Source of the DNA: Maribacter sp. MMG018
GTDB taxonomy: Bacteria; Bacteroidota; Bacteroidia; Flavobacteriales; Flavobacteriaceae
Length of the DNA stretch: 64,000 nucleotides
NCBI RefSeq assembly: GCF_018100785.1
Contig: NZ_JAGJEC010000001.1
Location: forward strand, 1,488,001-1,552,000
Direction of reading: 5' to 3'
Shown piece by piece: positions 46,669-49,064 of the stretch (position 1 is its first letter; the number at the start of each line of letters is the position of its first letter). A program made the translations under genes and the position numbers. Under the pieces are notes generated by a model. The model saw only the letters and a program-made list of their open reading frames with translations, searched no databases and was not told the DNA's origin.

Positions 46669-46694
46669 TTGTTACATTTTGGTTAGGTAAAATA

Positions 46695-46727
46695 TCCGTT
46701 CGGTCATTTCTTTCTACCGTTCATCAT
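46695..46727 (+). promoter_or_regulatory. LytTR-type operator 1 (direct repeats, 21-base period)
   Basis: CCGTTCGGT at 46696 and CCGTTCATC at 46717 are direct repeats separated by 12 bases, so the period is 21, the geometry of AgrA/AlgR-type LytTR sites (known core CCGTTC-like). It lies upstream of the 68-residue membrane protein gene, about 33 bases before a TAnnTTTA element. Confidence 0.65.
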
Positions 46728-46757
46728 AATTCATTCATTTTATCCCCATTTGCTCTT

Positions 46758-46765
46758 TAGTTTTA
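46758..46765 (+). promoter_or_regulatory. -7-like element of the 68-residue protein gene
   Basis: TAGTTTTA matches TAnnTTTG except for the last base. It lies 41 bases after the start of the second operator repeat. No TTG is at the -33 position, which fits an activator-dependent promoter. Confidence 0.5.
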
Positions 46766-46798: not shown

Positions 46799-47005
46799 AT
46801 GAAAACTTTAGACAGAACAAAACTTGCAGTATTAATTATCGGAACCTTAACAACGGTCGTATCGCTTATCGGAGTGGCAATAGATTTAAATTTGACCAAC
46901 TATTTCTTTCCACTATATGCCGGGTTAACATTGGTAGGTGTATCCCTCCTGCACAACGATGCAACAAAAGAGGGCAAGAGCGATAATCTGGTGATAGAAA
47001 AATAA
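46799..47005 (+). CDS. Small two-helix membrane protein, likely LytTR target
   Basis: 68 residues. Two hydrophobic helices (about 9-29 and 35-52) with a short DLNLTN loop and a hydrophilic tail LLHNDATKEGKSDNLVIEK, so probably both ends face the cytosol. No named family is recognised. It follows a LytTR-like operator pair and precedes the lytS/lytTR operon, making it a candidate effector of that system. Confidence 0.65.
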   Translation: MKTLDRTKLAVLIIGTLTTVVSLIGVAIDLNLTNYFFPLYAGLTLVGVSLLHNDATKEGKSDNLVIEK

Positions 47006-47046: not shown

Positions 47047-47079
47047 ACCATTTAGAACATTCTTTTTGCCGCTTATCAT
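47047..47079 (+). promoter_or_regulatory. LytTR-type operator 2 (direct repeats, 21-base period)
   Basis: CCATTTAGA at 47048 and CCGCTTATC at 47069 keep the 21-base period. Aligned without gaps to operator 1, 24 of 35 bases are identical (ending CATAAT in both). It lies upstream of the kinase operon, so the system appears autoregulated. Confidence 0.6.
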
Positions 47080-47109
47080 AATATGGGCAAATTCGACCAT
47101 ATCAACCAT

Positions 47110-47117
47110 TAAATTTA
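47110..47117 (+). promoter_or_regulatory. -7-like element of the lytS/lytTR operon
   Basis: TAAATTTA (TAnnTTTA) lies exactly 41 bases after the start of the second repeat of operator 2, the same offset as in the upstream promoter. There is no TTG at -33. Confidence 0.5.
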
Positions 47118-47140
47118 TCTCAATATTTAAAAAACGTACT

Positions 47141-47194
47141 ATGATTGCAATTGTGAAAATACTATTAGTGCTTATTATCTATATATTTATTTAA
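47141..47194 (+). CDS. Possible 17-residue hydrophobic leader peptide
   Basis: ATG 47141 to TAA 47192-47194. The product is almost entirely I, L, V with one K, like a short membrane peptide. It lies in the leader of the kinase operon after the predicted start site. It could be chance; no ribosome-binding signal decides it. Confidence 0.25.
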   Translation: MIAIVKILLVLIIYIFI

Positions 47195-47210
47195 GACCAC
47201 ATCTATAAGC

Positions 47211-47282
47211 ATGAAATTAGAAAGAACAGTATATTCCGCTATATTTGGATGTAAAATGGGACTGCATGACTTCTTTTGTTAA
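47211..47282 (+). CDS. Possible 23-residue upstream ORF overlapping the kinase start
   Basis: ATG 47211 to TAA 47280-47282 in another frame than the kinase, overlapping its ATG at 47266 by 17 bases. Such an overlap could couple or dampen kinase translation. The peptide (MKLERTVYSAIFGC then KMGLHDFFC) has no known relative. Confidence 0.25.
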   Translation: MKLERTVYSAIFGCKMGLHDFFC

Positions 47283-48336
47283 AAAATATAGATGGTCGAT
47301 ATCCTTTTGGGTCGTTCAACTTATGTCTTGGGGAGGTCTGGTCTTCATAGCATATGCCTTTACGCCCGATATGGATGGCTATAAAAGTAGCAAGGTATTT
47401 AGTTATGGTTTAGTTTCTACTTTTTTAATCGGTATTGTATCTACAAGTTTATTACGCTCTTATTTAAAGGGGATCGTAAATTTTGAAGCCTTTGAGAAGA
47501 AACAGATAGTAAAAATTCTTTTGGGGGTAGCGTGTGCTTCTTTGTTATATTTTGCCCTTTCTTACGGTTTTGGGTATTGTGTGGGTAAATATTCGGAAGA
47601 GGATGTAAAGGTGCCGGAAATGTATAAAAATTTCGGTATCGGGCTAATGATCGTAAATTCGTTCATCACCATTTTTGGATGGACCATTTTTTATCTTTCT
47701 GTGAAGGTCGCGGCAAAATTGAACGCCAATAGGGTAGAGCGGGCAGAGCTTAACGCTACCCTAAGACAAGCGCAGTTGAATACGTTAAAGGGGCAGATAA
47801 ATCCTCATTTTATGTTCAATAGCCTAAATAATATTCGAGGGCTCATGTTGGAAGATGTAGAAAAATCTAGGGACATGCTCACAAAACTGTCAGAGATGTT
47901 GCGTTATTCTTTGACCAAGAACAACGTGAATGCCATTAATCTAGAGGAAGAATTGGATATGGTAGATAATTACATTGCCCTTTCAAAAATACAGTTCGAA
48001 GAACGTCTTGAGTTCGTTAAGCATATAGACAAAACTACGTTGGATATAAAGATTCCACCAATGATCATACAGCTTTTGGTAGAAAATGCCGCTAAACATG
48101 GTATTGCGAATCTAAAATCTGGGGGAATAATAAAGTTGACTACAGAAAAATCTTCCGATAATTTAATAATAAAGGTGATCAATACCGGTAAACTTATGAT
48201 CGTTAAGGGGTCTACACAATTAGGACTCAAGAATATAAGACAACGATTAAGGCTGTTGTATGGTTCCAATGCTTCTTTTACCATTAATGAAATAGATGGG
48301 GAAGTCGTCGCCACAATAAAAATTCCTCTGTCATGA
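47266..48336 (+). CDS. LytS-type sensor histidine kinase
   Basis: 356 residues from ATG 47266; an in-frame TTG at 47245 is possible. Four membrane segments in residues 1-150 form the sensor. The His_kinase motif LNTLKGQINPHFMFNSLNN holds the phosphorylated His181. The C-terminal ATPase has LLVENAAKHGI and GLKNIRQRLRLLYG. It phosphorylates the LytTR regulator, whose start overlaps its stop by four bases. The stimulus is unknown: no extracytoplasmic domain is seen, so it may sense the membrane. Confidence 0.92.
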   Translation: MTSFVKKYRWSISFWVVQLMSWGGLVFIAYAFTPDMDGYKSSKVFSYGLVSTFLIGIVSTSLLRSYLKGIVNFEAFEKKQIVKILLGVACASLLYFALSYGFGYCVGKYSEEDVKVPEMYKNFGIGLMIVNSFITIFGWTIFYLSVKVAAKLNANRVERAELNATLRQAQLNTLKGQINPHFMFNSLNNIRGLMLEDVEKSRDMLTKLSEMLRYSLTKNNVNAINLEEELDMVDNYIALSKIQFEERLEFVKHIDKTTLDIKIPPMIIQLLVENAAKHGIANLKSGGIIKLTTEKSSDNLIIKVINTGKLMIVKGSTQLGLKNIRQRLRLLYGSNASFTINEIDGEVVATIKIPLS

Positions 48337-49064
48337 CCCAGATAAAAGCTGTAATTGTCGAAGATTCCCGTTTGGCACGTAACGAGCTTAGGGAGCTAAT
48401 TAAAAAACATGCTCGATTACAGGTAGTAGGGGAGGCGGAAAACGTGGACGATGCCTATGCCCTTATTCGGGAAACGCAGCCCCAATTGCTGTTTTTGGAT
48501 ATAAACATGCCAGAAAAAGATGGGTTTGAACTGTTAGAGATGTTGGATCAGATACCTATCACCATTTTTACCACTGCCTTTGATGAATATGCCATAAAAT
48601 CTTTTGAATACAACGCATTGGACTATTTGTTGAAACCTATCAACGAAAGACGATTTGCCCAGGCAATTGAAAAGGTGGAGCAAAAATTGAATTCACAAAA
48701 AGAAGAACCTATTTCTGAAAACCGACATTTAACAGGTAACAGCCAAATTTTTATCAAGGACGGAGAAAAATGCTGGTTGATCAAGATCGGTGATATTTCA
48801 CACTTTGAAATTGTAGGTAACTATACCCGGGTATTTTTTCAGGATGAAAAACCCATGCTCTATAAATCATTGAACCAAATAGAAGAGAAATTGCCCCAAA
48901 AGTATTTTTTCAGGGCCAATAGACAACAAATAATCAATACCAATTATATCGTAGATGTAGTGCCATGGTTTAACGGAAAATTAAAATTGACGATGACCAA
49001 CGGTGATGAGATAGAGGTGTCTAGAAGACAATCGTATCTTTTTAAGGACAAGATGAGTCTTTAG
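48333..49064 (+). CDS. LytTR-family response regulator
   Basis: 243 residues. The receiver domain has the phosphoacceptor Asp56 (LLFLDINMPEKDG), the Thr/Lys pair (FTTAFDEYA, DYLLKPI) and a linker. The LytTR DNA-binding domain spans about 135-240 (IFIKDGEKCWLIKIGDISHFE...RANRQQIINTNYI). LytTR proteins bind paired direct repeats about 21 bases apart, as found upstream of its own operon. Coupled to the kinase by a 4-base overlap. Confidence 0.94.
   Translation: MTQIKAVIVEDSRLARNELRELIKKHARLQVVGEAENVDDAYALIRETQPQLLFLDINMPEKDGFELLEMLDQIPITIFTTAFDEYAIKSFEYNALDYLLKPINERRFAQAIEKVEQKLNSQKEEPISENRHLTGNSQIFIKDGEKCWLIKIGDISHFEIVGNYTRVFFQDEKPMLYKSLNQIEEKLPQKYFFRANRQQIINTNYIVDVVPWFNGKLKLTMTNGDEIEVSRRQSYLFKDKMSL

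Follow-up and report, generated by a model that had tools for sequence, protein, structure and literature searches.

The pair of direct repeats at 47048 and 47069 lies in front of an operon encoding a sensor kinase and its response regulator, which raises the question of whether this operon controls its own transcription, through which regulator, and in which direction. The window, i.e., the whole stretch of 64,000 nucleotides that was analyzed, contains two such repeat pairs ahead of the kinase gene, here called operator 1 and operator 2; both operators, their -7 boxes, and the genes behind them are on the plus strand. The region 47048 to 47117 is quite probably a real LytTR-type operator-promoter bound by the cognate regulator, which would give autoregulation, most likely positive, of a peptide gene together with the kinase and regulator genes. 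The sequence itself shows that the operator exists, that it is conserved with a fixed geometry, that it co-occurs with the regulator and mostly stands near it, and that the peptide open reading frame (ORF) bears a coding signature. The kind of operator is already known; what is newer is the offset kept rigidly across the family, the location of most sites close to the regulator, and a first gene of tiny size.

Organization of the kinase operon and its two operators

The kinase gene (47266 to 48336) encodes a LytS-type sensor histidine kinase (PF06580, 90.9 bits, cut-off 25.2), and the response regulator (48333 to 49064) carries a receiver domain (PF00072) and a LytTR domain (PF04397) with 76.7 and 83.5 bits, respectively, both above the cut-offs. 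With the kinase domain and both regulator domains present, the pair belongs to the LytS/LytTR two-component systems. LytTR regulators are described as binding two imperfect direct repeats approximately 12 bp apart (PMC4064291), and the 9-bp repeats found here, with a period of 21 and ahead of a promoter, correspond to a LytTR operator.

Operator 2 comprises half-site 1 CCATTTAGA (47048 to 47056), part of a perfect pattern match in the genome, and half-site 2, which begins as CCGCTTATC at 47069 and together with its TCATAAT extension reads CCGCTTATCATAAT (47069 to 47082). The -7 box TAAATTTA (47110 to 47117) is situated 41 nt from the start of half-site 2. With the box taken as positions -12 to -5, following the passages of PMC9723704 used here, the transcription start is predicted at 47122, and the half-sites would be centered near -70 and -49, which is the position of an activator. 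The box of operator 2 has the form TAnnTTTA, compared to the Bacteroidota sigma-A -7 consensus TAnnTTTG given in the same source (PMC9723704); in the 81 family operators with the box at +41, the eighth base was A in 55 and G in 26.

Operator 1 is built in the same way, with half-site 1 CCGTTCGGT (46696 to 46704), half-site 2 beginning as CCGTTCATC at 46717 and reading CCGTTCATCATAAT with its extension (46717 to 46730), and the -7 box TAGTTTTA (46758 to 46765). The preliminary description had given these letters and positions for both operators, a repeat period of 21, a repeat-to-box distance of 41, and a displacement of 352 between the sites, all of which were found exact when the window was reread. 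Behind operator 1 lies a gene for a small membrane protein of 68 amino acids (46799 to 47005), which had no match in Pfam or NCBIfam; its relatives are proteins of 57 to 71 amino acids encoded behind the peptide gene in other genera (19 to 43% identity in six). In a simple scan, the stretch from operator 1 to the kinase showed no terminator-like site, and read-through from operator 1 is therefore likely.

A TTACA(T/A)TTT element (46672 to 46683), located about 24 nt above operator 1, was kept in all 12 genus loci (window, L047 to L057). This element is in phase with the repeats (21 nt up), but as a third half-site it was rejected, with just 3 of the 5 core letters fitting and no trace of it in the family profile. 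A search for sigma-70 type promoters was uninformative, yielding 7 against 5.0 expected from shuffles.

Proposed mode of control

In the proposed mechanism, the LytS-type kinase would activate the cognate response regulator, which would bind both half-sites, sharing one face of the DNA at a spacing of two helical turns, and bring RNA polymerase to a -7 box that has no clear -33 element. Transcription from the promoter of operator 2 would cover the 17-codon ORF as well as the genes for the kinase and the regulator. Operator 1 would act likewise on the 68-amino-acid membrane protein, with probable read-through into the same operon. Autoregulation is well supported by inference and its direction is probably positive; we infer the binding and the direction, as well as activation, read-through, and translation.

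Precedents for such an arrangement exist. According to PMC6193735, positive autoregulation in Streptococcus mutans comes from repeats that closely precede the promoter, there is a strong bias in other species toward repeats 10 bp above the -35 element, and a comparable promoter in Bacteroides thetaiotaomicron has a repeat pair before a TATCTTTG box. LytTR direct-repeat autoregulation being already known, the operator is ordinary in kind. The same operator, read by the same regulator, could also serve feedback repression or merely set the basal level, for sequence does not reveal the direction of control. We regard this as unlikely: the half-sites near -70 and -49 precede the promoter instead of covering it, the constant +41 offset is activator-like, and the LytTR precedents whose repeats occupy such a position are activators (PMC6193735).

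Conservation of the operators in the genus and the family

Operators were analyzed in 89 regulator loci, consisting of 13 genus loci (window, L047 to L058) and 76 of 80 named loci, the latter being the best 80 among the matches listed; L067, L068, L069, and L078 were dropped as they are on the same contigs as genus loci. The named loci nearest to the regulator of the window are from Maribacter, and the window is taken to belong to this genus or one near it. Counts over the 89 loci include close relatives unless given as non-redundant. The operators were collected up to 4 kb upstream of the regulator with the pattern CCRYT-N16-CCRYT-N3-CAT(A/T), so the core letters are conserved by construction, while the collecting pattern put no constraint on the box and its offset, on the T preceding CAT, or on which of the allowed bases fills R or Y.

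At least one operator was present in 82 of the 89 loci, with two or three in 20 of them and 105 operators in total. The seven loci with none were L058, L096, L104, L136, L137, L139, and L145, with little upstream DNA in L096 and L136. A TA..TTT box stood at exactly +41 in 81 of the 105 operators, at a background chance of 0.0037 per position. Among the remaining 24, TA at +41 was accompanied by a slightly different box in 18, many of them from Allomuricauda or Muricauda, the box was one base off in five, and none was found near +41 in one (the most distal site of L070). TA at exactly +41 was thus seen in 99 of the 105 operators, 81 by pattern and 18 read by eye. In the 65 non-redundant operators, T preceded CATA in 59, and the fourth letter of half-site 2 was C in 38 and T in 27, so that operator 2, with CCGCT, conforms to the family.

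The ungapped match between operators 1 and 2, given in the preliminary description, was recounted at 24 of 35 bases. The number stands, but it is weaker evidence than it had been taken for, since such a value is usual between any two operators of the class: pairs among 43 non-redundant operators matched at a mean of 21.8 of 35 bases (standard deviation 2.3), and 23% of the pairs reached 24. A match of this size signals membership of the same class and not a recent copy, and a recent duplication was rejected as the reason for it.

Within the genus, operator 1 was present in all 12 loci (window, L047 to L057); 11 of them had the +41 box, and the remaining one had its box at +40. Operator 2 was exact in six (window, L047, L052, L053, L055, and L056), all with the box at +41, and imperfect in L051 (two mismatches) and L048 (eight mismatches). 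In L049, L050, L054, and L057, the 17-codon ORF begins within about 50 nt of the small membrane gene, which leaves no room for operator 2, so that operator 1 alone must serve the operon there and autoregulation would not depend on operator 2 alone. In the 13th genus locus, L058, the N-terminus of the kinase differs and no such operator was found.

These genus loci bear on the possibility that operator 2 is a decayed, functionless remnant and that the operon is controlled solely by read-through from operator 1. The four loci that manage without operator 2, the imperfect versions in L048 and L051, and the result of the simple terminator scan would all suit such a reading. It is nevertheless decidedly improbable, as the half-site variants CCATT and CCGCT of operator 2 are normal in the family, its distance of 93 nt to the peptide ORF falls within the family range of 91 to 124 nt, and the +41 box was kept in each of the six exact genus cases.

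Other features of these loci were noted in passing. An extra operator precedes a secreted-looking S9 (prolyl oligopeptidase) family gene located upstream of the system in three loci (L075:338-2368, L090:145-2523, and L126:265-2550), and an operator stands before the gene for a 127-amino-acid ankyrin-repeat protein in another (L077:628-1011). Judged from the translations, two kinase-like genes seem to lie in tandem ahead of the regulator in L058, L072, and L077. The kinase reading frame is broken in the assemblies of L049 and L051, perhaps by assembly errors.

Co-occurrence of the site and the regulator

An orthologous regulator (76 to 93% identity) was found in 12 of 35 genus relatives. The perfect site was present in 11 of these 12 genomes and in none of the 23 without the orthologue, four of which are less than 95% complete. 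The only genome with the orthologue and no perfect site was G010, where the box lies at +40. For the family, one set of 149 genomes, the own genome included and each at least 95% complete, was used for both the operator and the regulator searches. The orthologue was detected at E ≤ 1e-100 in 17 of them, and the perfect site in 14 of these 17 compared to 1 of the 132 others. The association corresponded to Fisher P values of 3e-8 for the genus and 6e-16 for the family, in which shared descent is ignored. A backward control pattern gave no match in the 149 genomes and one match in 60.

The sites were also mostly local. In the family draw, 17 of 19 preceded the regulator on the same strand by 1.3 to 4.3 kb, the exceptions being G036, which has no orthologue, and G102, whose site is far from its regulator. 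In the search of 60 genomes, 17 of 20 sites were at the regulator locus, with the G036 site and two sites in G009 as exceptions; G009 is a fragmented assembly in which both perfect operators are on contigs other than that of the regulator. This divergent genus member (L058, L160, and L167) encodes a 20-residue peptide of the same type upstream of its kinases.

The simplest reading is that the regulator reads the operators, and its strict site set would be mostly local. A different LytTR regulator could read a real operator, in which case there would be no autoregulation; the own genome contains 39 regions resembling the regulator at E ≤ 0.001. This is very unlikely, given that the 23 genus genomes without the orthologue contain 18 to 44 regulator-like regions each and still none has a perfect site. 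A paralogous kinase/regulator pair (L059 to L066) with a regulator 49 to 53% identical has its own conserved upstream region; in the seven loci examined of eight (L065 excepted), alignment and the ORF list showed no such operator and no peptide ORF, and the paralogue was rejected as a carrier of the same layout. Five genomes with this paralogue but without the orthologue likewise had no perfect site. Some observations speak against the proposed autoregulation, namely the 7 of 89 loci with no operator, the 6 of 12 genus loci in which operator 2 is not exact, the 3 of 17 family genomes with the orthologue and no perfect site, the perfect sites of G102 and G036 away from such a regulator, and the two G009 sites on other contigs.

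Specificity of the sites in the window and the genome

Two CCRYT half-sites at period 21 occurred at six places on both strands of the window, and adding either CATA or the +41 box reduced these to 46696 and 47048 each time, with a pattern composed after inspection of both window sites. A matrix of 36 columns was trained on the operator 1 sequences of ten genus loci (L048 to L057), the window and its nearest sister L047 being left out. Over 127,930 window positions on both strands, it ranked operator 1 first (56.8) and 47048 second (7.6), with the next position at 2.5.

The full pattern CCRYT-N16-CCRYT-N3-CATA-N29-TANNTTT, composed once both sites and the family loci were known, had exactly two perfect matches in the 4.13-Mb genome, operators 1 and 2, which is also the outcome of the genome-wide search proposed in the preliminary description. 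With up to two mismatches, two further matches appeared, compared to three for the backward control. Loose pairs were common, CCGTT-N16-CCGTT with up to two mismatches matching 70 times in the window versus 42.8 expected, and as a regulon motif this pair was rejected (16 exact genome sites versus 34 for its backward control).

Chance resemblance, for which the frequency of loose half-site pairs might speak, is scarcely credible against the matrix rank, the uniqueness in the genome, the recurrence in genus and family, where other species keep the half-sites and the box offset, and the nearly empty backward control. The cross-species matrix, genome uniqueness, and pattern counts agree that the two sites exceed chance, and together with recurrence in other species and co-occurrence with the regulator they bear out the original proposal of a second operator of equal geometry in front of the kinase operon. 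The rule for the operator (CCRYT, 16 nt, CCRYT, 3 nt, CATA, box at +41) is so exact that sequence alone suffices to locate the system in Flavobacteriaceae together with its targets, and the circuit can thereby be put to a direct test.

The 17-codon ORF behind operator 2

The proposal that operator 2 serves the kinase operon is supported, with one addition: the first gene behind it is a 17-codon ORF (47142 to 47195) absent from the earlier account, with the peptide MIAIVKILLVLIIYIFI. The ORF starts 93 nt after operator 2, roughly 20 nt past the predicted transcription start. An ORF of 16 to 26 codons was found 91 to 124 nt past an operator in 58 of the 89 loci, compared to 246 of 35,600 random anchors (0.7%) meeting the peptide rule in the same loci; this was one loose hydrophobic rule, composed once the peptides were known. 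An ORF fitting the rule anywhere between -2600 and -1000 of the regulator was present in 79 of the 89 loci, a count that was not used because chance would often meet the wider range. A 23-codon ORF at 47212 was rejected, as it was similar only in the sister locus L047.

Codon positions were compared in 46 hand-picked 17-codon ORFs using 36 nearest pairs, which are not independent. Differences at codon positions 1, 2, and 3 numbered 124, 23, and 202, whereas the 51 nt upstream had 308, 316, and 332; the uncorrected pN/pS of these pairs was 0.31. Lysine occupied residue 6 in 38 of 42 peptides, and positions 3, 10, and 14 were mostly small or polar. The mean helical moment was 0.307 compared to 0.181 in shuffled peptides, with 15 of the 42 peptides significant singly. 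The product looks like a translated amphipathic helix under selection, and the ORF like an overlooked gene, conserved, tied to a sensor kinase, and far below the usual length limits of annotation.

Beyond the autoregulation proposed above, a more speculative extension is that the operator fires a family of amphipathic membrane peptides of 17 to 18 residues, conserved in many Flavobacteriaceae genera and produced just before the kinase, which might act back on the kinase or on the membrane that it monitors. The system may then form a nearly closed, self-controlling circuit that also controls neighboring small membrane proteins, with the peptide as a built-in feedback signal; we put this forward tentatively and hold it to be possible rather than probable. 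Small membrane proteins and peptides can switch kinases, as reported for ScrA on SaeS (PMC12239555) and for the de novo Dcr peptides on PmrB (PMC7790251), which makes a feedback role of the 17-mer plausible. What these two cases share with the present one is the association of a two-component kinase with a peptide or small protein of the membrane; for the 17-residue peptide an interaction would be hypothetical, and no sequence relation is claimed. The gene is of interest for the unsettled question of how very small proteins adjust membrane kinases.

Relation to known regulatory systems

No description of the operon, the peptide, the rigid offset, or the mostly local sites was seen among the open-licence PubMed Central papers listed. 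The best NCBIfam match of the regulator was BtsR, with 167 bits below the cut-off of 246. The BtsR motif, ACC(G/A)CT(C/T)A occurring twice at period 21, resembles the half-sites found here. The pyruvate transporter targeted by BtsS/BtsR has no counterpart in the present finding. The Escherichia coli pyruvate system BtsS/BtsR (YehU/YehT; PMC5552118) likewise consists of a LytS-type kinase and a receiver-LytTR regulator. The Riemerella system of PMC5399024 was rejected as a relative, being of the OmpR/BaeS type in that report.

In operator layout there is a resemblance to the LytTR Regulatory Systems (LRS), namely, HdrRM and BrsRM of S. mutans and the LRS-like operons of Bacteroides, in which the operon of a LytTR regulator has, just ahead of its promoter, 9-bp direct repeats separated by 12 bp (PMC6193735). 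The BrsRM repeats ACCACTTAT-12 bp-ACCGCTTAT are close to the CCATTTAGA/CCGCTTATC pair of operator 2 (PMC6193735). In contrast, LRS regulators have neither a receiver domain nor a kinase partner (PMC6193735), a membrane inhibitor replacing the kinase, whereas the regulator here has its receiver and a PF06580 kinase; the operator would thus work like an LRS promoter, yet the system is not an LRS. The box spacing, the TCATA extension, and the 17-codon first gene do not figure in the description of LRS in the portion of PMC6193735 used. Sites of the LytTR regulator AlgR from Pseudomonas aeruginosa are not necessarily direct repeats 12 bp apart, as far as PMC4064291 covers them, but the AlgR half-site CCGTTCGTC is identical, letter for letter, to half-site 2 of operator 1 in several genus loci (PMC4064291).
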